Source of the DNA: a virus
IMG/VR virus record: IMGVR_UViG_3300036770_004592
Span: 1-32,823 of that record
Direction: 5' to 3' (one strand)
Length of the DNA: 32,823 nucleotides
In this document: positions 1-32,823 of the stretch, piece after piece
Position numbering within the stretch: the first letter of the stretch is position 1
Layout: every line of letters begins with the position of its first letter
Notes under the pieces: generated by a model
What the model saw: the letters and a program-made list of their open reading frames with translations, nothing else
Databases searched by the model: none
What the model was told of the DNA's origin: nothing
Made by a program: the position numbers and the translations under genes

Positions 1-482
1 GTAGAGGTTTTCGTGTTCCCTGGTATAAGCTTGACGAAGATAATCCTATTTTCAGACAAAATATGGCTGAGCTTGCTAGACTTCAGAGACGAGCTAATAG
101 ACAGGAAGAAAGAGAAACAGTAAGAGCTGAAAATAAGCCAATGACTGCTACTGTTCTTGGTGAGGGTGGTACTCCCGCTGAAACAGCTCCTACTACCGCT
201 ACCACTAACAAGCCGACTAAAACTACTACTACCAGCACAGGCCCAGGGACAGGCGCACAAAAGAAAGGCGAAAGAGCTAGTTCAGCATTCCCAGCTCGGC
301 TTGAAAAAAGGCATCAACGACTTCTAAAAAGAATTCGCAGATTGTCTAAAAGAAGTCTTCCGCCCGAAGCCCCAGCTCCTTTAGCTCCTTATCAGTACTC
401 TGGAGCAACATCATATCAACCATCGGGAGCTATGGTTTCTACTACTCAATCCCAGGGAATGATGGGAACTATTCTAGGCTAA
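1..482 (+). CDS. 3' part of a Lys/Pro/Thr-rich packaging-module protein (gene starts at 32384)
   Basis: The window opens inside this gene. Bases 1-253 equal 32571-32823, so the reading frame joins the ORF starting at ATG 32384 and the full protein is about 222 aa. The first in-frame ATG in this copy (63) is internal, not the true start. The protein is basic and low in complexity: a charged segment (LARLQRRANRQEERE), a Thr/Pro-rich linker, a second basic helix-like segment (RLLKRIRRLSKRS), then a Tyr/Ser/Gly tail. It lies between the large terminase and the portal, so a role in DNA packaging or head assembly is likely from position alone. I recognise no family. At base 126 the two copies differ (Ala here, Thr in the 3' copy). 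Confidence 0.8.
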   Translation, partial: RGFRVPWYKLDEDNPIFRQNMAELARLQRRANRQEERETVRAENKPMTATVLGEGGTPAETAPTTATTNKPTKTTTTSTGPGTGAQKKGERASSAFPARLEKRHQRLLKRIRRLSKRSLPPEAPAPLAPYQYSGATSYQPSGAMVSTTQSQGMMGTILG

Positions 483-4952: not shown

Positions 4953-5522
4953 ATGACTGGGATTTATATTATTACCAACAGGCATACATTAAAGAGATAT
5001 GTTGGGCAATCAAAGAATATAGAGACAAGATTAAAATCACATTGGAATTCTCTATTGAAAAACAAACATATAAATCCTTACTTACAAAGTGCCTATAACA
5101 AATATGGTAAGGATGCTTTCATTGAGACTATTGTAGAATGCTCGGAGGTTGAACTTACTGCTATGGAGCAGTATTTTATTGATGTATGGTGGAAAACTGG
5201 TATTCTATACAATATTTGTAGAAAAGCAGAAGTCCCTCCAGCCTCCTGGGGCAGAAAGTATAAACACTCTGAAGAAACTAGAGCTAAGATGAGCGCTGAT
5301 CGCAAGGGCAGAATTCCTTGGAATAAGGGTAAAAAAATGCCTCCAGGTACTGGAGCAAAAGTAAGTGCTAAAAATAAGGGCAGAACTGCTTGGAATAAAA
5401 GTAATGCTTGGGATAGGGTTGATGAGATTAAAAAAGATAGACTTGCTGGATATACCCATTTAATGCTCTGTAAGAAATATAAATGTGGTTCTGAAACTAT
5501 AGGCAAAATCTGCCTCTCATAA
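4953..5522 (+). CDS. GIY-YIG homing endonuclease with NUMOD3 and C-terminal HTH
   Basis: A 189-aa free-standing homing endonuclease of the T4 Seg type. The nuclease domain occupies about 1-90: GIY at 3-5, YVG at 16-18, Arg26, His30, Glu72 (metal-binding Glu, in MEQYFIDVWW), and YNI near 86-88. After it come two NUMOD3-like DNA-binding repeats (about 98-150; SEETRAKMS and GRIPWNKGKK, then GRTAWNK), and a helix-turn-helix-like end (about 150-189). That end resembles the end of the second GIY-YIG protein at 26173-26661. It sits between the capsid operon terminator and the tail genes with its own promoter-like motif. It would cut an allelic site in competitor genomes and spread by repair. Confidence 0.92.
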   Translation: MTGIYIITNRHTLKRYVGQSKNIETRLKSHWNSLLKNKHINPYLQSAYNKYGKDAFIETIVECSEVELTAMEQYFIDVWWKTGILYNICRKAEVPPASWGRKYKHSEETRAKMSADRKGRIPWNKGKKMPPGTGAKVSAKNKGRTAWNKSNAWDRVDEIKKDRLAGYTHLMLCKKYKCGSETIGKICLS

Positions 5523-5524
5523 TG

Positions 5525-5537
5525 CCTAAATACATAT
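5525..5537 (+). promoter_or_regulatory. Promoter-like motif CCTAAATA before the tail adaptor gene
   Basis: CCTAAATA (5525-5532), spacer CATAT, ATG 5538. The motif-plus-start block CCTAAATACATATATG is identical to that before the portal gene at 483-498. Confidence 0.68.
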
Positions 5538-9972: not shown

Positions 9973-9985
9973 ACTAAATAATCAT
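9972..9985 (+). promoter_or_regulatory. Promoter-like motif GACTAAATA before the gp14-like gene
   Basis: GACTAAATA (9972-9980), spacer ATCAT, ATG 9986. The motif decides the start of the downstream gene: the longer in-frame ATG at 9932 lies upstream of the motif and inside the previous gene. Confidence 0.7.
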
Positions 9986-10706: not shown

Positions 10707-13700
10707 ATGCCAAAAATACCTTTAACAAATATTAGTATGGCTCCTGAACTTCGCGGTGGAGTCAATGTTCCTCAAACCGGACTTATATCTGATGCGTTAG
10801 GAAAAGCCATACAAGGTGCAGCTATTGACACTATGCAAGGTTCTATAGCTGCTGCTAGAGGCGAGATGGAAAAGGGTCAGGCGATCGCGGGCTTAGGAAA
10901 GAATATCGCTAATGTAGCAGGCGCATTTGCCGCCTTACAAGATAGAGAGAAAAAACTAGACTCACTTGAAACAAGATTAGCATTTGATCAGGATTTACAA
11001 CGCCACTATTTGACCCGCGAAGAGTTTGAATTTGCTAATAGTGAAAATCCTATCTTAAACGGTAAAAATCAATATACTGAATTTGCTATTAAAGGTATTG
11101 CTGATCTAAGAAAGAAATACGGGGAATTGGAGTTAGATCCAAACACTGCTGGTTATATTGCTGGTCAACTTAGTGAGCATACTATTAAATCCCCTGCAGA
11201 AGCAAGGATTAATTCTATTCGTCAACGCGGTATTAACTTTAACAATCAGTTTAAAACTTCTTTAGAAGGTAATAATTTTGATGCTGCTTTTAATATTAAT
11301 CAATCAGCATTTGAAAATGGATTAATAAATGAGACACAATTTAATGCCAATCAACAAACTGTAACCGATCAACGAGTTTCGTTTGTAAGAAAAAGTGGCG
11401 AAGAGGAAATTGGAGCATTACTTCTTGATAATAATATCGCTGCTGCTGATGAATCATTTAAGCGTTTACAGATAGAAGGTAATTATACTGATCAAGAAAA
11501 GGCCTATAATCAATCATATTATGATAATAAGAAAGCTAATGTTGTAGTTTATAATACTACTCTTAATAATGCTTTAGAAAACCCCTCCGATGAGCTGAGG
11601 AGAGTAATGGCAGAAACAGAGCGTCGTCAACAGCCTGGTTGGAGAGAAGATCCTAAAGATCCTACTGGATTGGGTCGACTTGATAATATTCAGCTTGAAT
11701 CTCTTAAAAAGAATATAGGCGAAGCTGTTAAAATAAAAGCAAATGAACAGCTTGGTAATGTATTAAGGTCTCTACCCGATTCTCCTGCTGGCGAAACTCA
11801 AGACGAGTTTAATAAGAGAATCAAAACAGAAGCACCCGAGCTTTATGCTTATGACGACGGAGCTATTACATCTTTCTTATATGACTTTAAGCAATCTGGT
11901 AAACAAGCCCAAGGTGGTATTACTGGCTATTTCCTCGACAAAATTAATGAAATAGATTTTGAAGATCAATCTGCTGGAGCAATGCAAGAGCGTGGTATGC
12001 TTATGGATGCTATCGAAGAGTTTACCGACGGTGGCGTTCAAGACGAGTTAAAAAATCAGTGGAGTAAAAGAGAAAAATTACATACTGACCCTGCTACCAA
12101 TGCTCAGGTTAAGTCAATGGAAGGTATGGTTGATACGTTTGTTGATTCACTACCAATGCCAGATATAGACGTCCAGGTTGAAGCAAAGCCAGCTAGAACT
12201 CCTTGGTATAAATTTGGTTTCGGTGAAAAAACTGTTCCTCCGGTTATGGGAAGACCTGGTAGAATTGAAAAGCAAGAAATATATGATGCTGATGGTAATT
12301 TATTAAGCGAAAAAGAAGTATTTGTTGCTGAAAAAGATAAAACAAAAGAACAAATTGTTATAGAGGAAAGAAAAACACTTAGTAATTCTATTAAAGCTCA
12401 GCTTCGTGAAAATGCAGCAACGGGTAAATACACTAAGTCTGATGGCACATTTAATACTGAACTGTTTAGAAATGACTTTAATCTTATAATTACCGATATA
12501 GCTCCTCTACCCGCTACAGGAGCTACTGTACCTTCTCCTACACTACCGGGAGATGAATCTGATAATATTACCCCTGAAACGAGAGCGGCTCGCGAGGCCG
12601 GAGCTAACATACCGATTCCGCAGCCTGAAATGCCTGTGCCCGTGCCCGTGCCTTCGCCTGAACCACAAGCATTTAATTTACCTCCAGTTGAACAGCTTGA
12701 AGAGGTATTTAATCCAGAACAACAAACAACACCCACTATGACAGCAGGAAACTTTAAATTTAACGTTGTAAATAAAACCAGAGATCAACTCGAGTCTACA
12801 AGCTCTACTATTGGAAATCGCATTGTATCCCTTGATTATAATTCATCTTCTGGCGGCGCTAATTATGCAATGATTGTTATCCCTAACGATGCTACTGCTG
12901 AAGAAAGAGAAGCAGCTAAGCTTTACGTTGATACAGTAACAGATTGGTTTAGATCAAATGGCATTCAAGTTGGCGATCCAATTGTAAAAACAACCAGTGA
13001 AAATGGTAGAGGTGTTGGTGGATTCTTCCATACTGAGCCCGCATTCGTTCAAAATAGGGCTGCGATGGGACTACTTCAAGAAAAAGCAGGAGAATACGCT
13101 AACATTGTTGCTAATACCCTAGGAGCTCTTCCAGGAACTACATTTATACCGCCTCATAAATCCAACGATCCAGGAGCAGGTGCTCCTGGCATTCTCGGCG
13201 AAAGAGACTTTGCTAAGACCTACATCTTGCCTGAGCTTGCTAAAATACAACAAGGAGTACAAACACAAATGTCACAAGGAGTGCAAACAAAAATGCAACA
13301 AGGCGAGCCTATTACTATAACTGCTTCAGCATATTCACCTAAGCGTGGAGCCTCCAACGTATCAGGAGCAGGAGGTGAAGGTGGATATGAAGCTTCTCGA
13401 CCTGGTCCTGATGGTAAAGCGATAGTTCGCACTCTTGATGATGTGCTAACAGGCCAATCTGACTATATTACTATAGCAGGTAATCCTGAGTTGTACGGTA
13501 AAGAATATATAATTCCTGAAATACCTTATACAGATAAGCAGGGAGTAAGACATATACTCACCAACGTAAGAGCTGTTGTTCATGATACAGGGTCTGCATT
13601 TAATGAAGCACCTGAAGGTAGATTCGATATTCCAGTAGCTAGAGATGTTGGGACTGAAACAATGGCCGCAAACCATGCTAGCTGGAAAGGTATTCAGTTT

Positions 13701-13718
13701 ATTCCTTTAGAGGGATAA
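10707..13718 (+). CDS. Internal virion protein (T7 gp15-like) with C-terminal 3D/double-psi barrel-like domain
   Basis: A 1003-aa ejection-core protein. The N-terminal about 560 residues are helical (LETRLAFDQDLQRHYL and others), as in gp15-type proteins. A Pro-rich linker follows (about 630-655, with VPVPVPSPEP), then a folded region about 675-800, then a short repeat of the type QQGVQTQM in three near-copies (about 848-866). The C-terminal domain, about 868-1003, resembles 3D/RlpA-type double-psi barrels: ITASAYSP, then VVHDTGSAF (Asp960) and GRFDIP (Asp974). In MltA-like enzymes such domains cleave peptidoglycan. It may open the wall during DNA entry (inference). The gene is 1 bp after the gp14-like gene and has no motif of its own. 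Confidence 0.82.
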   Translation: MPKIPLTNISMAPELRGGVNVPQTGLISDALGKAIQGAAIDTMQGSIAAARGEMEKGQAIAGLGKNIANVAGAFAALQDREKKLDSLETRLAFDQDLQRHYLTREEFEFANSENPILNGKNQYTEFAIKGIADLRKKYGELELDPNTAGYIAGQLSEHTIKSPAEARINSIRQRGINFNNQFKTSLEGNNFDAAFNINQSAFENGLINETQFNANQQTVTDQRVSFVRKSGEEEIGALLLDNNIAAADESFKRLQIEGNYTDQEKAYNQSYYDNKKANVVVYNTTLNNALENPSDELRRVMAETERRQQPGWREDPKDPTGLGRLDNIQLESLKKNIGEAVKIKANEQLGNVLRSLPDSPAGETQDEFNKRIKTEAPELYAYDDGAITSFLYDFKQSGKQAQGGITGYFLDKINEIDFEDQSAGAMQERGMLMDAIEEFTDGGVQDELKNQWSKREKLHTDPATNAQVKSMEGMVDTFVDSLPMPDIDVQVEAKPARTPWYKFGFGEKTVPPVMGRPGRIEKQEIYDADGNLLSEKEVFVAEKDKTKEQIVIEERKTLSNSIKAQLRENAATGKYTKSDGTFNTELFRNDFNLIITDIAPLPATGATVPSPTLPGDESDNITPETRAAREAGANIPIPQPEMPVPVPVPSPEPQAFNLPPVEQLEEVFNPEQQTTPTMTAGNFKFNVVNKTRDQLESTSSTIGNRIVSLDYNSSSGGANYAMIVIPNDATAEEREAAKLYVDTVTDWFRSNGIQVGDPIVKTTSENGRGVGGFFHTEPAFVQNRAAMGLLQEKAGEYANIVANTLGALPGTTFIPPHKSNDPGAGAPGILGERDFAKTYILPELAKIQQGVQTQMSQGVQTKMQQGEPITITASAYSPKRGASNVSGAGGEGGYEASRPGPDGKAIVRTLDDVLTGQSDYITIAGNPELYGKEYIIPEIPYTDKQGVRHILTNVRAVVHDTGSAFNEAPEGRFDIPVARDVGTETMAANHASWKGIQFIPLEG

Positions 13719-13737: not shown

Positions 13738-13751
13738 GACTAAATATCTGT
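13738..13751 (+). promoter_or_regulatory. Promoter-like motif GACTAAATA before the giant ejection-protein gene
   Basis: GACTAAATA (13738-13746), spacer TCTGT, ATG 13752. A CCGCGG palindrome (13730-13735) lies just upstream. Confidence 0.7.
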
Positions 13752-16700
13752 ATGCCTGAGTTTATCACAGAGGAACAATACCTTGCAGTAGAAAACATTA
13801 TTAATAACCCACCCCCTGGTACAACAGACTACTATATGGGGGAGTGGAAGAAGCACCAAAACCGCTATAAAGAGCAACAGTTTAGAGCAGGTATTACTGA
13901 TTTAACTCCTAATAAAACAGCAAAGGCAGGAGCTGATCAGTTTGAAACTGTAAAAAAATATAACGAAATATACAGCAAAGGTATTGAGGGGTATGATGTA
14001 ACAACGGAACCTGATGGTCAATATCTAACTTCTCCAGAAGCAATTGCGCGACGTGTAAATAGAAACTATCTTTCAACCATCTATACAGGTGAGAAAATTG
14101 ATGCATCCAATCATGATTTAGTAAGAACAGACTTTGCCAAAAGGTTTCTTAGCAGAGAAGATATTTTAGATGATGTTACATTTTTTAACGCTGTAAAAGA
14201 TCACGTTGGAAAAACCGTTAAAAATGCTGAGCGTGAGCAAAAGATACAGCAACAAGCTGTTGTAAACTACTATGAAGGTTTATCGCTTAGTGATTCATTA
14301 AAGCAAATACAACAATTCGGGCCTGTTGACGCATCCAATGTAAGAACTATACATCAAAATCTCGATAGTGTAATTAACCCGGTTAAGCCTAAAATTGATA
14401 ATTTATTGTCTGCATTATCTCGTAAAACTAAACCTGAGGTAATGAAGCAGTATGCTACTGAAACTGGCAAAACTGTCGAAGAAATTAAAGCTGAAGATAA
14501 GCTTATTGTTGATGACTTTACAAATACTTTAATTCAAATTCACCCTGATAATCGCAGTAAGATAATGAAAAAGGCTCTTGGTGAAGCTGCGCGTAAGGGT
14601 AAATTAGAACAAGAAGATCCTCAGGGGATTTATAATGAAACTGTAAAGCTTTTTGATGAAGCAGTTAAATCTGCTAAAAATGTATTTGAGGGTTATGATG
14701 CCGCTATGCGAATGGACGCTGAGGTATCGCTTAATAAAATGTCTTTTGCCCCTGGTGATGAATTACGAAGCGCGACGCTAACAGAAATAACTACTCCAGA
14801 GCAAGCTAGACAATATATTATGACTCAGCTTCGCGGTGGTGAAATTGCCCCTGCTGTAGGTCCAGGTGCAAGGCCTTTCATACCCGAGTTAAATAAAATA
14901 CAACTTAACGAAAATTCTACCAAACTACTAAGAGATGCAAAAGCTGAACTTTCTAGCGTTATAGATATAGATAGAAAAATAGGTCAACTAAGTAAAGCTG
15001 TAGATCCGTTCAGAGAAGGGATTCTAACTGATATGGCTACTACTCTCGGTAGCTCTGTTGGTATTATGGGAGTATATGGTCTTGCTGGATTAGCTGGTCC
15101 AATAGGTACTGCTGGTGGCCTATCGTTTGTTGGAACTCTTTATACAGGCCTTAACTATGACGAAATTAGAGAAAAATATCCTGATCTCTCACCTGATAAA
15201 GCGCGTAATGTAGCTGTTGCTTCGGGCGGAGTTGAGGCTCTACTTGATTTGGGTCAGTTTAGCATTATTACAAAAGCGTTTAAATCTCTTGGAGTAAAAG
15301 AAGCAGTAGATCTTGCTGGAAGAGGAGCAGCTAGTAGATTTGGTATTAAAGCAGCTGAAACGACCATTAAAACCTACATATTTGAATTAGGTATCGAGTT
15401 TTTACAAGAGGGAGCTAGACCTATTGTTCAAGAGATATTTGCTCAATATGATAAAGAATATAGCATAAATATTTCGGAGGAATGGGCTGATTGGAAAGAT
15501 GCTGCGCCTCATATAGCTATAGGAATGATTCCTCTTGCCGTTATTGGTGGATTAGGTGCTGGATCGAAGCGTATATTTGCTGATTCAGCACTCAAGAAAT
15601 CTATAATGAAAGAGGGCGAATTAACTGCTTTTGGTCTCTCTCAAGAACAAGTCGTCGAAGTTCAAAATCTTGTCAATAATAATATGTTTGACGCTGCGAG
15701 ATCGCGATTACAAGAACTCAACAAAGATCAAAATGTATTAGAGCGTCGCGGAGACGCATTACAGCGTATCATCGCAGCGCAGGGTATAGAAGAAATTAGA
15801 GCTTTCGATGAAGCTCGTAGAGATGGATTAATTCCAAAATATACAACTAACGAACAAAATAATTATGTTCTTGAAGACGGAACTATATTGCAAGATCAAA
15901 GAGCATATATTGAGTATACTCGATCCAAAATAGAAGAGCTTGAAATAGAATATGCCAATACTACAAAACAGCTCATTGAAGGTGGTAGTGCTGAAGTAGT
16001 TGATATCGATGAATTAAATCGCAGAACTAGCCTTATCGGGAGAGTTAAGGGTCTTACTGTTGATCAACTTAGGTCGTATGATAGTATCTTTGGAACAACA
16101 GCAGTCGAGCAGTCTGATGTTGTAGATCGGCTCATAACATCTATTGTTGACAAAGGACCTGTTGAAGGTATTAAGAGTTATCTCAACGAAATATATGATA
16201 ATATAACTGAGGATGTAAAACTCGCTTTAGGAAAAGATAAAACAGAGGGTATAGAGACTTTGTATAGTATTATCACTGGACAATCTGTGGCTATTAGAGA
16301 TGAGAATGATATGTCTGGTGTGAACGTCGTTATTAAGCCAGCAGATCATATAGTTGATTATGAGGATGTAAGCATAGTAGAAAAAAATAAGGAGGTTGAT
16401 GATACATTCTACCTTGCTGGTCTAAAAGGATTTGATGCTGCGAGAGACAGTCTTGAAAAAAATAGATTACAATCATATAGTGGGTCTGGAGGTCTTAACT
16501 TTGTTAATATTAAAGGGGAACAAACAAGTGTTGGTGGTAAATATGTTCAAACTATAGTTAATACACTCGAGGAGCAGTATAATGTTAGATTTTTCTTTGT
16601 AAAAGGTCAAAAGAATGATCAAGGTAAATATGTTGGAGCGTATGGTATAAGTGTTGATAATGCTATTATTATAGATATTGACCGGGCCAGAGGATCAGTA

Positions 16701-19700
16701 TTAAATCATGTATTAGGTCATGAGTTTGCTCACTACCTCGAAAATACATCTGCTTATAAAGACATGAGCGATGCTATTATTAGATTTAGCCAAAAGCAGT
16801 TTGATGACTATAGAAAGGTTCATGGCGAAAATACGCAAAGAGAGTTTGTTGCTGATATGTTAGGCTCTAACTTTAGAGATATTAACTTTTGGAGCAAGTT
16901 AACCGGTGAAATGTATAAAGCAAATCCTACCACTGCTGATAGTTTTATTGGCACTGTGAAGGCATACCTCGGCGGTATAAAGGAAATGCTTCCTAAGTCA
17001 TTACAAAATCGTGAAATAGATACAGAGAGTATTCAGGATTTTGATAAACTACAAAGTGCTATTATTGCTGGTATGTTGAAAGGTAGAGCTGATCAGTCAC
17101 AGCAAACTGGGGAAGCCAAGTTTATGGAAGCTACTCCAAGCTCTGAAAATCGTTCTGTTGATTATGTATCACGTAAACTCCGTGATCAGATTAATTACGC
17201 TATGTCTCGCATACAAGAAGCAGGTGGATTACCCGTTGGTAAAGAAGCACTACTCGCGCGATTACTTACTCCACAAACAGAGGAGCAGTATACAGATTAT
17301 ATAGAAAATAGAAAATCTTCTATTTTAAGAAGAATAAATGCTGAACGTAAAGCAATAGATAATTTGAATATTGGCAGAACGCTGCGTAATATATCTAATA
17401 ATCTATACACGGCTCTTAAAGATAATACTACAACTTTAAAGCAGATAGCTGAAGCTGAAGCAGCGAAAATTGCTATTGATAAAGATTATACCCCGCTTAC
17501 TCTTGCGCAAATACAAGATATACAAAAAAATCCAGCTAGTAAAACAATGGAGTATATCGAGACATTTAATAAAGCGCGTAACGAATATTTAACTGAAGTT
17601 GTTAATGTCAAAATAAAATATATTTATGACGCTTTAACGGGTCGTATAACACCTGACAGGGAAGATGTAAAAGAATGGGTTAAAACTCTTAGAGATGTAA
17701 TAAAAGAAAGCCCTATTATTAATAATCTATTTAATAATATTGATAATGCTTTGTTTGAAACAGACATTAAAAAAATTAAAAGCGAACTTTCTGAAGTTTA
17801 TAATGAATTATATACAGCAGAAGGAGTGCCTAGAGAGATGAGTGATGAGGCATTTTTAAACGCAATGTTAAAATATAGCGTGTATAAAACATTTGGGGGA
17901 TGGCAAAAAAGGAATATTAATGAAAAAGAAAATGTAATAACACAAGCGTTAAAATTAACAAGTCGAGCATTTCTTGACAACGTACAAGATATTTTTGTTA
18001 ATCCTCAAACAGAGGAGCTTGTAGAAAAAAGTATAAAGGAAATAGTAGAAAATAAAAATACTATAAAAAGAAAGGTCGATAGAAACCCGCTTATTGCTGA
18101 TACTGTTGAAGGTATATTTTCATACCTCGATAATCATATTACCTTTTCTTCTGAACTTGAGTTAATATCTCCTAGTGTTGGTACTCCTGGCAGACCTATT
18201 ACATCTGAATTACAGAAAGTAAATGATATGTTAATAAATGCTTATCTCAATATACAAGATGAGCAAATTGAAACCCAACAAAGCATAACAAGTAAGGTTT
18301 CAAAAATATTCGGAATAACAGAAAAAGAAGCTATAAAAATAATATACGATATACTTACTGCTAAAAATAAAATTAAGGTCACAATAAAAGGTAAGAGTGT
18401 AAAACTTAAAGAAGGCTACGCTGCGTATATTCTTAATATAGAAGATCAGTTAATATACCAAGATCAGTTAAATAGTGCTGGGTTTACAACTGAGGTATTA
18501 AACGATATTAGAAGTCAAATATCCAAAGAGGTTGATGCTTTACGTCGCGAACTAAGAGACGATTTGATTAAAATTGTTAAGCGAAATAATCAAAAACTAA
18601 GAGATATCGGAACTTTTGCTATAGATCCTAGCGAAATATTTTTCCCGGTACAAAAGCAATCACTTATAAGATCTGTTGTTGATAATTTCGATATTGCATA
18701 CGGCAATGGAATTCAGTCTGATGCAGTAGAAAATGAATTAGCAGATAAAAATGAGCTTGAGTTTGATATTGATGAACAAAATATAAACATTATATCAATG
18801 TATAATACTCACGCATATCATGTAATACATAAAGCTAATGTCGCTCAACCTATAAATATATTAAAGAGAATTTTTACATCTAAATCCGTAAGAGATAAAA
18901 TTAATACATATATGGGCAGTGACGGTATTAAGGGTATATTTAAATTTATAAACGCTCTCGAAACAGGTGGTATTACAACTACAGAATTTAATCGCAGTCA
19001 AAAAAGAATAGTAAATCAGATATTATCCGGAACCGCAAGAGCTTCTCTAGGTTTAAATTTAAAGACATATATGGTAAATATGATGTCAGCCGCTAATATT
19101 TTACTCGATACATCTATACCTACTAGTATTAAAATAAAATCAGTTTTCACCGCTTTTTCTGGTATGTATGAATTCGGCTCAAAGAGTGCTCTTGATAAAT
19201 TAATTAGAAGAAGAAAAGATGCTGGAGCAAACGCTTTATTACAAATTATCAAATCAGATACAACTGGTATTTCGCCGGGTAGTAAATTTTACCCAATTAA
19301 ACAATTAAGTGATCGATCTCTTGAATGGATAGGAGAAATTGACGCTAATTTCTTAACATTTTCTGCTATTGCAGCATATAATGCGCATTACGAAATAGGA
19401 AAACTAGAAGGATTGCAAGGCGAAGAGCTTAAGCTTTTCGCGGAAAATGGAATGGTAAGATCAATTACAAAAGTCGCTCAACCTAATATGGCAGCAACTA
19501 AATCTTACCTCGAACAAACTAGTAATCCGTTTTTCAGAACAATTTCAATGTTTATGTCTGAATCTCGTAAAAATTTAGGCATTGAATATACTGTAATGAG
19601 AAAGAATGGTATTTTATCTAGAGAATTTCTAAACATATTCTTATTCAACCACCTTATTATAGGATCCGGTGCTTATGCTCTTCGCGCATTGGGAGGAACA

Positions 19701-20081
19701 ATATTAGGCGAAGAAGATCCTTGGGATATTGAAGAATGGTTAATGTATACCTTATCAGGCCCGCTAAGTGGTATTATATTATTTGGAAGTGCTGCTGATA
19801 GTCTTATAAAGAAAATATATAATGAGCTCGCACCAGGTTTGGGTCTAGACAAAGTAAGGGTTTTTGGCCCATCTGCTCCCGCTCCAATAAGAGTTATTGA
19901 GGATGTAATTAAACTAAAAGATTCTCTTGATAAAGGTGCGAGTTTAAATGAGAGGGCTGATGATATTGCGACAGGTTTAGAATCAATTGGCACTATATTA
20001 AATCAACCAATAATTGGTAGTGCTGGATCTATATTAGATGCTATAACAGATCTTGTTAAGGCGACAGTTGAAAGAGAGTAA
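13752..20081 (+). CDS. Giant internal virion protein (T7 gp16-like) with a zinc metallopeptidase motif
   Basis: A 2109-aa protein, the largest in the genome, in the gp16 slot (T7 gp16 is 1318 aa). Hydrophobic Gly/Ala-rich segments at about 428-467, 586-605 and 1957-2020 could enter the host envelope. In the middle is HEFAH (His990, Glu991, His994), followed 37 residues later by QREFVADMLG with Glu1031 as the probable third zinc ligand, a gluzincin-like arrangement. The region from about 1200 to 1800 is charged and helical. T7 gp16 carries a transglycosylase at its N-terminus; I see none here. The metallopeptidase may cut virion or host proteins during ejection (inference). Start supported by the upstream motif; no Shine-Dalgarno. 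Confidence 0.85.
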   Translation: MPEFITEEQYLAVENIINNPPPGTTDYYMGEWKKHQNRYKEQQFRAGITDLTPNKTAKAGADQFETVKKYNEIYSKGIEGYDVTTEPDGQYLTSPEAIARRVNRNYLSTIYTGEKIDASNHDLVRTDFAKRFLSREDILDDVTFFNAVKDHVGKTVKNAEREQKIQQQAVVNYYEGLSLSDSLKQIQQFGPVDASNVRTIHQNLDSVINPVKPKIDNLLSALSRKTKPEVMKQYATETGKTVEEIKAEDKLIVDDFTNTLIQIHPDNRSKIMKKALGEAARKGKLEQEDPQGIYNETVKLFDEAVKSAKNVFEGYDAAMRMDAEVSLNKMSFAPGDELRSATLTEITTPEQARQYIMTQLRGGEIAPAVGPGARPFIPELNKIQLNENSTKLLRDAKAELSSVIDIDRKIGQLSKAVDPFREGILTDMATTLGSSVGIMGVYGLAGLAGPIGTAGGLSFVGTLYTGLNYDEIREKYPDLSPDKARNVAVASGGVEALLDLGQFSIITKAFKSLGVKEAVDLAGRGAASRFGIKAAETTIKTYIFELGIEFLQEGARPIVQEIFAQYDKEYSINISEEWADWKDAAPHIAIGMIPLAVIGGLGAGSKRIFADSALKKSIMKEGELTAFGLSQEQVVEVQNLVNNNMFDAARSRLQELNKDQNVLERRGDALQRIIAAQGIEEIRAFDEARRDGLIPKYTTNEQNNYVLEDGTILQDQRAYIEYTRSKIEELEIEYANTTKQLIEGGSAEVVDIDELNRRTSLIGRVKGLTVDQLRSYDSIFGTTAVEQSDVVDRLITSIVDKGPVEGIKSYLNEIYDNITEDVKLALGKDKTEGIETLYSIITGQSVAIRDENDMSGVNVVIKPADHIVDYEDVSIVEKNKEVDDTFYLAGLKGFDAARDSLEKNRLQSYSGSGGLNFVNIKGEQTSVGGKYVQTIVNTLEEQYNVRFFFVKGQKNDQGKYVGAYGISVDNAIIIDIDRARGSVLNHVLGHEFAHYLENTSAYKDMSDAIIRFSQKQFDDYRKVHGENTQREFVADMLGSNFRDINFWSKLTGEMYKANPTTADSFIGTVKAYLGGIKEMLPKSLQNREIDTESIQDFDKLQSAIIAGMLKGRADQSQQTGEAKFMEATPSSENRSVDYVSRKLRDQINYAMSRIQEAGGLPVGKEALLARLLTPQTEEQYTDYIENRKSSILRRINAERKAIDNLNIGRTLRNISNNLYTALKDNTTTLKQIAEAEAAKIAIDKDYTPLTLAQIQDIQKNPASKTMEYIETFNKARNEYLTEVVNVKIKYIYDALTGRITPDREDVKEWVKTLRDVIKESPIINNLFNNIDNALFETDIKKIKSELSEVYNELYTAEGVPREMSDEAFLNAMLKYSVYKTFGGWQKRNINEKENVITQALKLTSRAFLDNVQDIFVNPQTEELVEKSIKEIVENKNTIKRKVDRNPLIADTVEGIFSYLDNHITFSSELELISPSVGTPGRPITSELQKVNDMLINAYLNIQDEQIETQQSITSKVSKIFGITEKEAIKIIYDILTAKNKIKVTIKGKSVKLKEGYAAYILNIEDQLIYQDQLNSAGFTTEVLNDIRSQISKEVDALRRELRDDLIKIVKRNNQKLRDIGTFAIDPSEIFFPVQKQSLIRSVVDNFDIAYGNGIQSDAVENELADKNELEFDIDEQNINIISMYNTHAYHVIHKANVAQPINILKRIFTSKSVRDKINTYMGSDGIKGIFKFINALETGGITTTEFNRSQKRIVNQILSGTARASLGLNLKTYMVNMMSAANILLDTSIPTSIKIKSVFTAFSGMYEFGSKSALDKLIRRRKDAGANALLQIIKSDTTGISPGSKFYPIKQLSDRSLEWIGEIDANFLTFSAIAAYNAHYEIGKLEGLQGEELKLFAENGMVRSITKVAQPNMAATKSYLEQTSNPFFRTISMFMSESRKNLGIEYTVMRKNGILSREFLNIFLFNHLIIGSGAYALRALGGTILGEEDPWDIEEWLMYTLSGPLSGIILFGSAADSLIKKIYNELAPGLGLDKVRVFGPSAPAPIRVIEDVIKLKDSLDKGASLNERADDIATGLESIGTILNQPIIGSAGSILDAITDLVKATVERE

Positions 20082-20097
20082 AAATAAAACCGAAATA

Positions 20098-20111
20098 GAC
20101 TAAATATACAT
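20098..20111 (+). promoter_or_regulatory. Promoter-like motif GACTAAATA before the 96-aa gene
   Basis: GACTAAATA (20098-20106), spacer TACAT, ATG 20112, 16 bp after the stop of the giant gene. Confidence 0.7.
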
Positions 20112-21232: not shown

Positions 21233-22149
21233 TGATTCGAGGTAGACCTATTATAAAGGATAGCTTAAGGAGTAATATTAACACCTCTCCTATTATTGCC
21301 CCATACTTGCGCCAAAACAACTCTACATTATATAATAACACAGTGGAAGATAAAGAATTAATTGTACATCATCTTGAAAATAGAGCATCAAAGAGCAAAA
21401 AAACTTTGATATATTATACTGTTTTTGGTTCAGTTTATAAAGAGATATTCGAATATAGTTTAAAATCAGTAAGATATTTTTATCCAGAAGCAGATATAGT
21501 TTGTATTTCCGATCAAACAGATTTACCGGTAGACACACTATTACAAGCGCCTGTAGATGATTTTATACAAGCCTCAATGAAGAAGCTTGATATATTTTTA
21601 GCATTAGGAAGTAAAATTTATAATTACGATCAGGTGTTGTTTCTTGATGCTGACGTGTTAGCTATTAAACCGTTAAACTTTTTAAACGGTAAAGCTACTA
21701 ATAATAAAATAGAAGTAGTCAAATCAGGTCAATATAGTAATATTAATCCTGAATCGTTTGTAAATCACTTTCACGGTATTAATCTACCGCTTAGTGATAA
21801 ACAAAAGAAAGATATAATAAAAAAGAAAATTATGCCATTTAATGCTGGGCATTTCTTGTTTACTCCAAACAAAGAATTAAAAGACGATTTTGATAATATT
21901 CGATGGCTAAGTAAAATTTGGCCTGGAGATTATTTTTATGAACAAGGGTTCATGAACTACTATTTTGGCATTGTAAAACAGAGTGTATCATATAAAGTTT
22001 TAAATCCTAATGTAGAGTTCTGTTCGCTTAATAAAGGAGAAACCCCAAAAGGCAACCGCGCTCTTATTCATTTTATCGGATCGCAAATTACTCCCGAAGT
22101 TAAACTCAACGCTATGAAAAATGCCTACGAGCGATTTATACAAGGTTAA
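21232..22149 (+). CDS. Glycosyltransferase, GT8/glycogenin-like
   Basis: A 305-aa protein with a GT-A type fold after about 55 extra N-terminal residues. KTLIYYTVFG (57-66) is the first strand, YSLKSVRYFYPEADIVCISD the nucleotide-sugar region, and FLDADVL carries the Asp-x-Asp metal-binding triad at 139-141. FNAGHFLF and the late segment DYFYEQGFMNYYFG fit the acceptor-side motifs of GT8 enzymes. The N-terminal extension could dock it to the neighbouring surface proteins. It starts on the stop of the preceding gene (TAATG) and overlaps the sulfotransferase gene by 29 bp. It could decorate virion proteins or host surface glycans. Donor and acceptor cannot be read from sequence. Confidence 0.83.
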   Translation: MIRGRPIIKDSLRSNINTSPIIAPYLRQNNSTLYNNTVEDKELIVHHLENRASKSKKTLIYYTVFGSVYKEIFEYSLKSVRYFYPEADIVCISDQTDLPVDTLLQAPVDDFIQASMKKLDIFLALGSKIYNYDQVLFLDADVLAIKPLNFLNGKATNNKIEVVKSGQYSNINPESFVNHFHGINLPLSDKQKKDIIKKKIMPFNAGHFLFTPNKELKDDFDNIRWLSKIWPGDYFYEQGFMNYYFGIVKQSVSYKVLNPNVEFCSLNKGETPKGNRALIHFIGSQITPEVKLNAMKNAYERFIQG

Positions 22150-22642
22150 CTTTATACACATTCCTAAAACAGCAGGAACGACTATAGAGAAATATATTGG
22201 AACTGCTACACTCGAAGAGGGATGGCAAAACTGTTATGATTCACCTCAGCATCGATTTGCTTCTGAGTATCCAAAAAATAATTATTTTACCTTTACTGTA
22301 GTTCGTAATCCATATGATAGAATAATATCTGAATATCATTGGAGAAACGTAGACGAAGATGTAAACGATTTTGTTGAAAGAGCTATATATACAGCAGATA
22401 ATCCAGAGTGGGATAGACATATATTACCACAATCAAATTTTGTTGATGTAGATGGGGTTAAAGTATTTAAATATGAGAACATCAACGCGCTGTTTACTAT
22501 TTTAACGGGACTTATAAGCTATCCCATTCCCCGCGCTACTCCTAAAATATATGAGAAGTATATTTTAAACACAAGCAGTGTTGAGCTTATTAATGAGTTT
22601 TATAATGAAGACTTTAAACGGTTCTCGTATAATAAACTCTAA
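22121..22642 (+). CDS. Sulfotransferase (PAPS-dependent, Sulfotransfer_2-like)
   Basis: A 173-aa compact sulfotransferase. FIHIPKTAGTT (11-21) is the 5'-phosphosulfate-binding loop, and VVRNPYDRIISEYHW (60-74, Arg62 and Ser70) is the 3'-phosphate-binding motif. FVDVDGVKVFKYENI and the C-terminal ELINEFYNEDFKRFSY are usual for this family. It is shorter than most relatives (about 200-250 aa), mainly in the middle. It overlaps the glycosyltransferase by 29 bp, so a sugar is probably added and then sulfated, or both enzymes act on one polymer. The start at 22121 gives residues before the IPKTAGTT loop as in relatives; no better start is visible. Confidence 0.9.
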   Translation: MPTSDLYKVNFIHIPKTAGTTIEKYIGTATLEEGWQNCYDSPQHRFASEYPKNNYFTFTVVRNPYDRIISEYHWRNVDEDVNDFVERAIYTADNPEWDRHILPQSNFVDVDGVKVFKYENINALFTILTGLISYPIPRATPKIYEKYILNTSSVELINEFYNEDFKRFSYNKL

Positions 22643-24924: not shown

Positions 24925-24938
24925 GACTAAATATTATT
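24925..24938 (+). promoter_or_regulatory. Promoter-like motif GACTAAATA before the 134-aa gene
   Basis: GACTAAATA (24925-24933), spacer TTATT, ATG 24939. Confidence 0.7.
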
Positions 24939-26172: not shown

Positions 26173-26661
26173 TCATCTATTGGTAGCTTCCAGGATCCTC
26201 CAAACTGTTGTATATGATGCATTAAGTCGTGCTGCAATTTCTTTGAGCTTAAGGCCTTCTTCATATCGCAAACGGCGAATTTCCGATATTCTTTCCCATG
26301 CATCAGAAGATCTTTCCGAAATCCTTTTCCTGTCAGTGTAGTAGACGTTATAGACATTATAATCTGTATTTATGTCAATAGTGACTTTTTCGACGGAACT
26401 TAGGTATTCTTTCATAACAGGCCAATATGTAATGGTAAATTTATTTATTCCGTGCTTTTTATAATCGGAGAGCATTTCCTTAGGAAATTTAACTCCCCGT
26501 CTTAAGCAGGACTTGCTATACATAATGCGCGTATAAAGTTCTTTCGAACTTCCAACATAAACTCTACCATTTTTATTATTTTTAATAATGTAAACAGCCG
26601 AGATTTTCGGTAAAGTCTTATAGTTTACCGCTGACAAGGGGATTGTAGTTGTGTTATTCAT
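26173..26661 (-). CDS. GIY-YIG family homing endonuclease with C-terminal HTH
   Basis: A 162-aa leftward gene. The nuclease core is at about 19-105: AVYIIKN (22-28, in place of GIY), YVG at 35-37, Arg45, then a helix and the segment DYKKHGINKFTITYW. The expected catalytic Glu is probably Glu84 in YLSSVEKVTIDINTDYNVYN, with the Asn of the family at NVYN. Residues about 118-162 are a helix-turn-helix of the type EGLKLKEIAARLNASYTTVW. This end resembles that of the endonuclease at 4953-5522 (AWxRxxEIxxxR...), so the two share a DNA-binding module. The start has a CTAAATA motif upstream on the same strand. Confidence 0.88.
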   Translation of the reverse strand: MNNTTTIPLSAVNYKTLPKISAVYIIKNNKNGRVYVGSSKELYTRIMYSKSCLRRGVKFPKEMLSDYKKHGINKFTITYWPVMKEYLSSVEKVTIDINTDYNVYNVYYTDRKRISERSSDAWERISEIRRLRYEEGLKLKEIAARLNASYTTVWRILEATNR

Positions 26662-26736: not shown

Positions 26737-27165
26737 ATGTTACAACACCCTGCTACGATTTTACTTTACGGGAATATAGATGAAAGGATGTCTTTATTTT
26801 TTCTAAAAGAGATGAGACGCTTACATTTACACAAAAATGTATTGGTTAGGATTAACAGCTATGGAGGTGATTTGCTATGTGCACTTAGTATTATTAATGT
26901 TATGAAACAGCACAGAGGCCACGTTATAACGCTAGTTGATGGATTTGCTGCGAGCTCAGCATCTTTGATAGCAGCGTCTGCGCAAGTGAGATTTATGCAC
27001 AAGACCTCTTTTCAGCTAGCACATAAAGTAGTCAACGACTGCCCTGCAAATGGGCCAATCTTTAATAGCGTTATAAAAAGCATTTATAAAGAGGACATCC
27101 CAGAAGATAGATGGCTTACTGCTAGTGAATGTTTTGAGTATAGGATATGTGATAAAATCATCTAA
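26737..27165 (+). CDS. ClpP-like serine protease
   Basis: A 142-aa protein with the crotonase/ClpP fold signature: LYGNIDE at 10-16, VRINSYGGDLLCAL at 37-50 (ClpP has INSPGG), GFAASSASLIAAS at 69-81 with Ser73 aligned to the nucleophile of GxAASMG, and FQLAHKV at 92-98 with His96 aligned to the catalytic His. The C-terminus EDRWLTASECFEYRICDK matches the ClpP end that holds the catalytic Asp. It is shorter than ClpP (about 195 aa), with trimmed N- and C-termini. It could be the head maturation protease, since no other prohead protease is visible, although T7-like phages need none; or it could replace or hijack host ClpP (inference). Confidence 0.87.
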   Translation: MLQHPATILLYGNIDERMSLFFLKEMRRLHLHKNVLVRINSYGGDLLCALSIINVMKQHRGHVITLVDGFAASSASLIAASAQVRFMHKTSFQLAHKVVNDCPANGPIFNSVIKSIYKEDIPEDRWLTASECFEYRICDKII

Positions 27166-27754: not shown

Positions 27755-27860
27755 AAAACATGGCAACATATAAACTTCTCTCTCTACTGTAGATTGATTG
27801 AATTGAAAAAAAAACATGGCAACATATAACTCCTCTCTCTATCTAAAATTGAAAAAAAAA
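27755..27860 (+). repeat. Two tandem direct repeats of about 56 and 50 bp with A-tracts
   Basis: Both units begin AAAACATGGCAACATATAA (27755 and 27811), continue with a CT-rich run (CTCTCTCTA) and end in ATTGAAAAAAAAA. Unit 2 is a few bases shorter in the middle. They lie in a non-coding zone between RNA 2 and the polymerase-like gene. Iteron-like direct repeats with A-tracts are typical of replication origins or of packaging or regulatory sites. Each unit opens with an in-frame ATG (see the finding on the tiny ORF). Confidence 0.85.
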
Positions 27861-27894: not shown

Positions 27895-27910
27895 GACTAA
27901 ATAGATGTGA
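27895..27910 (+). promoter_or_regulatory. Promoter-like motif GACTAAATA before the polymerase-like gene
   Basis: GACTAAATA (27895-27903) with a 7-nt spacer to ATG 27911. An ATG at 27905 is followed at once by TGA and is not used. Confidence 0.66.
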
Positions 27911-28921
27911 ATGAACATTAAACCCAGAATCATAAACAGAGATATAATACAGTTTTCTTGTGGTAAGAAAAAAAGAGAAGAGCTTTGTGGATCACTTGGC
28001 TCCAAGTTAGGAGTAGCATTTTTTGATATTGCTAACTTGTCAGATAGCTATATGTCCTCAAATATATGTGGTGAGAATAGGAAACCCTATTGTAAAACAG
28101 CAAATATAGCACCTAGAGACTTATTTGCCTTCTATCAATATACAGAACACCCTGAGGATGAAAGGGTTATGATTAAAGAGGATTTAACTGGTCCTAGTAA
28201 AAGCAAGAATAAAAAGAATTGGAAGTTTATATGGGTCAAGCCTATTACTGAAACTGATGAAGAGATCCTCAATATCCTAATTACCTGGTTGACAAATAAG
28301 TTCCAAGATGAACTCACCGAAGGTGAATTTAATTACAGCAATACATCTTGTGATAGAAAGTATCATCCATTACAAAATATGCCCTCTACTGTTAGAAATG
28401 GAGTGTTCAAATCCAAGGGCTATGATGGTAAGTTTGATGTTAAATCCTGCTTACCCACTACAATGGGTCAAGTTGCAGGTGAAGAATGGGATGTAAATAC
28501 TGTAGATTACATAGCAGAACAGCTAGGAGTTGAGAGAAAACTTGCAAAATTAGCAGTAAACAGTTCATTCTATGGAGCAACATTAACAGCATTTTCATCT
28601 GTTCTGAGATTACTTGACTTCAATGATGCTTGTACAGTACAACTTATAAGAGTTAGCCCTATTTTTATGAACACCAAGAAAAAGATTAATAGAATCAGAA
28701 AAGCAACAGGGCTAGATAAGGATTTTAATGCTTATTTTAGAGTAGAGAGACAAATAATAGAGTGCATTGAGGCATATATCAAAGCAAAAGGTGGTAGAGT
28801 TTTCACAATCCATGATGGAGGCTATTGTGATATAGAACTTGATAGGGCTGATTTAGAAGAACATGTGTTTAACCAAACAGGCTTTAGATTACAAATAGAA
28901 GTTTCACCCAATGACTACTGA
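27911..28921 (+). CDS. Miniature polymerase-like protein (family A DNA polymerase / single-subunit RNA polymerase motifs)
   Basis: A 336-aa protein with the palm/fingers motifs of the Pol I-T7 RNA polymerase superfamily in order. CDRKYHPLQNMP at 147-158 resembles the pre-A element (GR...PNLQNIP of Pol I). FDVKSC at 175-180 gives the motif A Asp176. ERKLAKLAVNSSFYG at 208-222 is an exact R-x3-K-x7-YG O-helix (Arg209, Lys213, Tyr221, Gly222). FTIHDGGYCD at 298-307 is motif C with Asp302, ending 34 residues later as in Pol I. The residues after HD are GG, not Glu (Pol I) or Ser-Phe (T7). It is far shorter than T7 RNAP (883 aa) or a Klenow-size core (about 600 aa), and I see no exonuclease or T7-like promoter-binding domain. 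It might be the phage transcriptase, a replicase or a primer-making enzyme. Activity is unproven. Confidence 0.75.
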   Translation: MNIKPRIINRDIIQFSCGKKKREELCGSLGSKLGVAFFDIANLSDSYMSSNICGENRKPYCKTANIAPRDLFAFYQYTEHPEDERVMIKEDLTGPSKSKNKKNWKFIWVKPITETDEEILNILITWLTNKFQDELTEGEFNYSNTSCDRKYHPLQNMPSTVRNGVFKSKGYDGKFDVKSCLPTTMGQVAGEEWDVNTVDYIAEQLGVERKLAKLAVNSSFYGATLTAFSSVLRLLDFNDACTVQLIRVSPIFMNTKKKINRIRKATGLDKDFNAYFRVERQIIECIEAYIKAKGGRVFTIHDGGYCDIELDRADLEEHVFNQTGFRLQIEVSPNDY

Positions 28922-30746: not shown

Positions 30747-30759
30747 TATAAATATTAGT
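30747..30759 (+). promoter_or_regulatory. Promoter-like motif TATAAATA before the large terminase gene
   Basis: TATAAATA (30747-30754), spacer TTAGT, ATG 30760. Confidence 0.68.
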
Positions 30760-32366: not shown

Positions 32367-32383
32367 GACTAAATAATAATATT
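32367..32383 (+). promoter_or_regulatory. Promoter-like motif GACTAAATA before the Lys/Pro/Thr-rich gene
   Basis: GACTAAATA (32367-32375) with an 8-nt spacer to ATG 32384, immediately after the TerL stop. Confidence 0.66.
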
Positions 32384-32823
32384 ATGGCGACCGCACTTTC
32401 ACAAAATGTTCAAAATAGGCTTGAGTTTACCCCGGTAACACCTATGCAGACTGCTACCCCGGCTAAACCAGCTAAGAAGCCTAAGCCAGCTAAAGCAGCG
32501 ACTCAATCTACTACACTTAATAAAGGTTATCCTATGCCGGACTTTGGCGAAGAAAATCTAGTAACTATAAGTAGAGGTTTTCGTGTTCCCTGGTATAAGC
32601 TTGACGAAGATAATCCTATTTTCAGACAAAATATGGCTGAGCTTGCTAGACTTCAGAGACGAGCTAATAGACAGGAAGAAAGAGAAACAGTAAGAACTGA
32701 AAATAAGCCAATGACTGCTACTGTTCTTGGTGAGGGTGGTACTCCCGCTGAAACAGCTCCTACTACCGCTACCACTAACAAGCCGACTAAAACTACTACT
32801 ACCAGCACAGGCCCAGGGACAGG
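32384..32823 (+). CDS. 5' part of the Lys/Pro/Thr-rich protein; continues at base 254 of the window
   Basis: ATG 32384 begins a frame that runs off the window end. Since 32571-32823 equals 1-253, it continues to the stop at 480-482. The N-terminus includes a Lys/Pro/Ala segment (AKPAKKPKPAKAA) and then ENLVTISRGFRVPWYKLDED, the best candidate for a folded part. The function is unknown; the TerL-portal position suggests packaging or head assembly. Confidence 0.82.
   Translation, partial: MATALSQNVQNRLEFTPVTPMQTATPAKPAKKPKPAKAATQSTTLNKGYPMPDFGEENLVTISRGFRVPWYKLDEDNPIFRQNMAELARLQRRANRQEERETVRTENKPMTATVLGEGGTPAETAPTTATTNKPTKTTTTSTGPGT
32571..32823 (+). repeat. Copy of bases 1-253 (end overlap of the contig)
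   Basis: All 253 bases match the window start except G126/A32696. This shows that the sequence closes on itself, with a unit length of 32,570 bp. It could be an assembly overlap of a permuted genome or a true terminal repeat; raw reads would tell. Confidence 0.97.

Follow-up and report, generated by a model that had tools for sequence, protein, structure and literature searches.

A putative miniature DNA polymerase A-superfamily protein in a podovirus-type phage and its relatives in PHROG 4756

Introduction

Minimal polymerases of superfamily A have been known since Iyer, Abhiman and Aravind (2008) described the TV-Pol family, which keeps only the core of the superfamily, has no exonuclease, and occurs in mobile elements and viruses (PMC2579912). 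Its hallmarks are a conserved hairpin arginine that contacts the template, two metal-binding aspartates, and an RxxxK (R-x3-K) motif in the fingers. The TV-Pols were proposed to be primase-polymerases and are usually linked to a helicase; typical companions are a linked or fused D5-like helicase, or else a linked resolvase, integrase or transposase (PMC2579912). Within the TV-Pol group, the CCPol-MP pair of SCCmec, an A-family mini polymerase with the small partner protein MP, has been shown to act as a primase, synthesising DNA primers de novo (PMC7581432, PMC10061031). CCPol keeps the steric-gate glutamate that excludes ribonucleotides, as does Pol I, and prefers dNTPs (PMC7581432).

Here, we analyze a 336-aa phage protein, P0001, encoded in the IMG/VR virus record IMGVR_UViG_3300036770_004592, whose whole 32,823 bp constitute the window of this study. 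A first-pass annotation, made from the DNA sequence alone, had described P0001 as a miniature polymerase carrying Pol I/T7 RNA polymerase (RNAP) motifs.

The phage genome and its gene content

The portal, major capsid, tail, and terminase proteins of the window are of podovirus type. A terminal direct repeat of 253 bp (252/253 identical) indicates a complete or terminally redundant genome, in agreement with the first-pass annotation, and we consider the genome probably complete. A portal-based search of IMG/VR returned a sole close relative, the genome L031, with identities of 55% for the portal, 60% for the terminase, and 67% for the capsid protein. No family A DNA polymerase (PF00476) or DnaB-type helicase (DnaB_C) was matched in the window genome, no D5 helicase (D5_N) in either this genome or L031, and no recombinase was recognised among the scanned window proteins. 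The claim that P0001 is the only polymerase candidate thus holds for PF00476, DnaB_C, and D5_N, while the search for T7-like RNA polymerases (PF00940) carries no information, as it matched none of the control genomes either.

Such a sole candidate in a complete genome, with a family matching DNA polymerase A, might be the replicase that copies the whole phage genome. We regard this as very unlikely, as neither an exonuclease, a helicase nor an SSB is recognisable, the fingers are very small, and phages of this size usually rely on host replicases, which commonly serve them.

Other genes of the window include two GIY-YIG homing endonuclease-like genes (4953-5522, plus strand; 26173-26661, minus strand, the latter also with a helix-turn-helix) and, distant from the head genes, a short gene for a ClpP-like head maturation protease of 142 aa (26737-27165). 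Two long ORFs (10707-13718, 1003 aa; 13752-20081, 2109 aa) occupy the position of internal virion proteins and have no PHROG match. A sulfotransferase-like gene (22121-22642; PHROG 3347, E 5e-19) adjoins the gene of a possible glycosyltransferase of 305 aa.

The P0001 gene, its motifs, and its surroundings

The ORF and every motif named in the first-pass annotation were found in place (Table 1): RKYHPLQNMP at residues 149-158, FDVKSC at 175-180, RKLAKLAVNSSFYG at 209-222, and IHDGG at 300-304, followed by a tail of 34 aa from Asp302 to the C-terminus. Judging from the alignment, the pre-A arginine corresponds to the conserved hairpin arginine of superfamily A (PMC2579912). Upstream of the gene lie two exact direct repeats, 56 nt apart, which could possibly represent an origin or a control site. 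A 100-aa ORF, also upstream, resembles by eye a 75-aa ORF (L031:2873-3100) that stands upstream of the gene for P0002, the counterpart of P0001 in L031, and is a possible candidate for a partner of the polymerase.

Table 1. Features of the window discussed in the text, with their positions.
Feature	Position	Strand	Basis or remark
Terminal direct repeat, copy 1	1..253		repeat comparison
Terminal direct repeat, copy 2	32571..32823		repeat comparison
(C/T)TAAATA sites	484-490, 2175-2181, 5526-5532, 9974-9980, 13740-13746, 20100-20106, 24927-24933		motif scan
Further (C/T)TAAATA sites	27897-27903, 30749-30754, 32369-32375 and others		motif scan
100-aa ORF upstream of P0001 gene	27204..27506	-	by-eye likeness to ORF in L031
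19-nt exact direct repeats, two copies (AAAACATGGCAACATATAA)	27755-27773, 27811-27829	+	upstream of P0001 gene
CTAAATA, candidate promoter	27897..27903	+	7 nt before P0001 start codon
P0001 gene, putative mini A-superfamily polymerase, 336 aa	27911..28921	+	ORF, profile comparisons
Pre-A segment R149-R162 (RKYHPLQNMPSTVR)	28355..28396	+	alignment; R149, R162 invariant (n=17)
Motif A FDVKSCLPT	28433..28459	+	D176 invariant; D+5 = Leu181
Motif B R209-x3-K213-x7-Y221-G222	28535..28576	+	K213 invariant, R209 in 16/17
Motif C IHDGG	28808..28822	+	H301, D302 invariant

Homology through a bridge protein and the wider family

Taken alone, P0001 has zero matches in Pfam, PHROGs, NCBIfam, PDB sequences, phages, and plasmids, and scans of IMG/VR and GTDB contigs revealed no relatives. 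Degenerate motif DNA scans of IMG/VR gave chance matches only, save L031, and when the whole of IMG/VR was scanned for the motif arrangement of P0002, L031 and chance frames were all that came up. A match to a Clavibacter plasmid (E 9) was rejected, its ORF being devoid of the motif pattern.

P0002 is a 372-aa protein encoded upstream of the terminase genes of L031, the same placement as that of P0001 in the window. It reads RLYHPL...R...IDVKSC...MHDGMM, and in both proteins YHPL and the motif A aspartate are the same distance apart. The two are barely alike by plain tblastn (E 1.3), and it is therefore the combination of motif, spacing, and synteny that makes the case for their relationship.

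The lead to a wider family was a hand-written consensus; the later tests used database sequences, with the exception of a tblastn query that was an alignment consensus with gaps filled by hand. The hand-written consensus matched proteins of a Hymenobacter plasmid and of uncultured huge phages, a consensus built from these pointed to a protein of a Vibrio phage (L143), and a search with the latter retrieved 242 phage records, including ICP1, Rheinheimera, and Aeromonas phages, some with up to three matching places. The Vibrio phage protein falls in PHROG 4756 (E 3.7e-105), a family listed as of 'unknown function', and ICP1 gp100 (L147:7356-9023) belongs to the same family. The Hymenobacter plasmid homologue adjoins a gene for a CAP12/Pycsar TIR-domain effector, a defence protein (L132:5112-5885); an identification of this neighbour as ParA was discarded.

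An HMM of 15 family members, from which the window and L031 were left out, recovered P0002 at E 7e-8, with the next sequence at 0.27. Once P0002 was added, P0001 became the best remaining match among 6,439 sequences (E 0.02), and hhalign aligned the family plus P0002 with P0001 at P 2.1e-6 and a score of 44.5, the decoy maxima being 20.2 (190 natural) and 24.4 (60 shuffled). The alignment is weak without P0002 (P 7e-4), and neither P0001 nor P0002 gives a direct PHROG HMM match to PHROG 4756. These comparisons show that P0001 is homologous, via P0002, to a wider family that contains PHROG 4756.

Six residues (R149, R162, D176, K213, H301, and D302 in P0001 numbering) are invariant in the 17 aligned proteins and agree with known catalytic positions of the superfamily, and R209 is present in 16 of them; Tyr221, previously taken for a key residue, is not conserved across the family. 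At position D+5 of motif A, P0001 has Leu181 and its relatives His, Gln, or Trp, the steric-gate glutamate being absent throughout. The members of PHROG 4756 share with P0001 the invariant residues, the order of motifs, and the length of the C-terminal tail, yet they are longer (400-555 aa) and found in phages of about 85-145 kb, whereas P0001 is far diverged and its N-terminal region is not alike.

Position within the superfamily

By hhalign, the clade from huge phages aligns over 154 columns with a profile built from nine phage DNA polymerases A (P 4.4e-7), and the whole family does so at P 7e-6. Against five T7-like RNA polymerases the whole family reaches P 0.03, which is not significant, while for the PHROG 4756 clade by itself P falls to 3.7e-4 around motif C; such a missing match proves little, because with these small alignments DNA polymerase A and T7 RNAP themselves match each other only at P 0.19. 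In tblastn searches with the family consensus, the matches beyond six known members were mostly DNA polymerases of family A, and a member from a huge phage has a match to PHROG 15971, annotated as 'DNA polymerase I' (E 0.002). Closer to P0001, a direct comparison of the window and L031 pair with the Pol A profile gives no match (P 0.016), and P0001 has no match to PF00476 (DNA polymerase I proper) above the Pfam cut-off and no Pfam match to PF00940. When the family profiles were searched against the PDB, no polymerase came up, only weak unrelated matches to the N-terminal part. The profile results therefore link the family to the superfamily, and place it nearer to DNA polymerase A. The profile search suggested in the first-pass annotation thus failed for P0001 alone and succeeded by way of P0002 and the family, and the nearness to T7 RNAP suggested there is not supported; the SC of FDVKSC, read as a sign of T7 RNAP, is not diagnostic.

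Structure prediction adds a local indication. AlphaFold models of two sequences are poor overall (pLDDT 34 and 47), too weak for judging a palm, but the motif C region is predicted as helix-strand-HD-strand-helix with HD at the hairpin turn (local pLDDT about 57-80), a predicted hairpin between helices that would have a superfamily-like appearance. Foldseek with the core model gave no match at E <= 0.001; among the 50 matches listed were five family A polymerases with E values of 3.5-8.9, which are insignificant and not counted as evidence.

From these profiles, reached through intermediates, and the invariance of Asp176, Lys213, His301, and Asp302, we regard as real the membership of P0001, a putative and extremely diverged mini-polymerase, in the DNA polymerase A/T7 RNA polymerase superfamily, as had been proposed. 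That P0001 is no polymerase and owes its motifs to chance, as its want of a direct database match and of a confident AlphaFold fold might suggest, is the least probable of the explanations considered: when the protein was shuffled 100,000 times, a generic D / R-x3-K-x7-[YF]G / HD pattern with the spacing of P0001 arose just 29 times, and it is absent from all 5,839 other natural ORFs, the syntenic homologue P0002 repeats the motifs, and the family profile scores far beyond the decoys.

In bacterial and phage DNA polymerase I, the reference residues are E710 and F762, and motifs A and C lie about 177 aa apart. P0001 shares with these enzymes the pre-A arginine, the motif A aspartate, R-x3-K, and HD, but it has no exonuclease and no equivalent of E710, has N217 in place of F762, and spans only about 126 aa from A to C. 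With T7 RNAP it has in common an exact R-x3-K-x7-YG motif B and the HD of motif C; unlike T7 RNAP, it has no N-terminal promoter domain, its D-x2-GR motif is degenerate, and the profile match is not significant. The compression of motif B and the finger region would fit a polymerase-derived but catalytically inactive protein with a replication or regulatory role, and reduced A-family Pol proteins, possibly vestigial, occur in mobile elements (Rice 2023, PMC10061031). We think this unlikely for P0001, in which both metal-binding aspartates, R209, K213, and H301 have been kept despite extreme divergence.

A proposed primer-making polymerase and a possible transcriptase role

We favour, with a probability of roughly 55%, the reading that P0001 is a compact palm-fingers replication primase-polymerase, similar to the TV-Pols and kin to PHROG 4756. 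It would make or extend a primer at the phage origin, and host enzymes would then carry out the bulk of DNA synthesis. The protein would have to be active and might accept ribonucleotides, a loose sugar selection that we infer because the steric-gate glutamate is absent from the whole family. The basis of this reading lies in the motifs, the invariant residues, the homology via P0002, the homology of the family to polymerases A, and the absence of any other detectable polymerase or of a replicative helicase. Counting against it, no D5 or DnaB helicase goes with the P0001 gene, unlike the usual situation of TV-Pols, and both the alignment without P0002 and the direct comparison of the window and L031 pair with Pol A fall short, as given above.

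Measured against the published list of features, P0001 has the hairpin arginine, the two aspartates, RxxxK, and the nuclease-free minimal core of TV-Pols. It differs in its length (336 aa versus 400-600 aa) and in that no D5 helicase, resolvase, or integrase was found linked to its gene. It is thus most likely close in kind to TV-Pol and not a new class, a likeness drawn from the published description, and the label 'ancestor-like' given to it earlier is needless for a minimal core familiar since 2008 (PMC2579912). CCPol, likewise, is a small A-family polymerase without proofreading that serves a mobile element, and after the model of CCPol-MP, P0001 would most simply be read as the priming polymerase of the phage. 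Yet CCPol requires the SSB-like partner MP, while for P0001 no partner was identified, and it has the steric-gate glutamate where P0001 has leucine.

The TAAATA sites pointed out in the first-pass annotation are real and strongly placed. Of 24 starts in the window, 12 have the motif in the preceding 25 nt (0.4 expected), as do 10 of 22 in L031 (0.2 expected), and no SD-like sequence was seen before the gene starts of either genome. At many starts of the window the gap between TAAATA and ATG is exactly 5 nt, which would suit leaderless mRNAs. The 18 portal-related phage loci differ, with TAAATA before 0-2 starts each and SD-like sites being common. Short AT-rich promoters, similar to the TAAATA sites, are used by N4 RNAPII gp16 (404 aa) (PMC4496689). 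P0001 might accordingly be thought of as the phage transcriptase, a reduced single-subunit RNA polymerase starting leaderless mRNAs at (C/T)TAAATA sites, and it would agree with this that no other phage RNA polymerase was found (by the uninformative PF00940 search), that the steric-gate glutamate is absent, and that the PHROG 4756 clade has a T7 RNAP match over the motif C region. We nevertheless hold this to be doubtful. The two features occur together in two genomes only, which are related, so that the TAAATA pattern amounts to one observation, and an unusual, perhaps non-SD, host would explain it too. T4-type late promoters and host -10 promoters also resemble TAAATA, the profiles favour DNA polymerase A, and no T7-like promoter-recognition domain was seen. 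Moreover, P0001 has relatives in large phages, among them ICP1, a phage with a replisome of its own and a Pol I-type polymerase (PMC7145576).

The two roles might also be combined, if P0001, with relaxed sugar selection, were both a transcriptase of leaderless mRNAs from TAAATA sites and a primer-maker. This seems improbable; if true, P0001 would rank with the smallest polymerases of this sort and would be a living model for the core that Pol I shares with the T7/mitochondrial RNA polymerases.

Significance

If the preferred reading of P0001 as a priming polymerase is extended to its relatives, a widespread yet unannotated group of putative mini-polymerases probably starts the copying of viral DNA. 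On the profile evidence, PHROG 4756, with more than 200 phage records of 'unknown function', is a compact family of the DNA polymerase A superfamily. This ties to the superfamily both a protein that no database matches and a set of phage proteins of 'unknown function', among them gp100 of the well-studied cholera phage ICP1, an assignment that points directly to mutants and assays. If active, these proteins would help to show how small an A-superfamily polymerase can be and still work, and would offer a test of how priming or transcription arose from a Pol I core.
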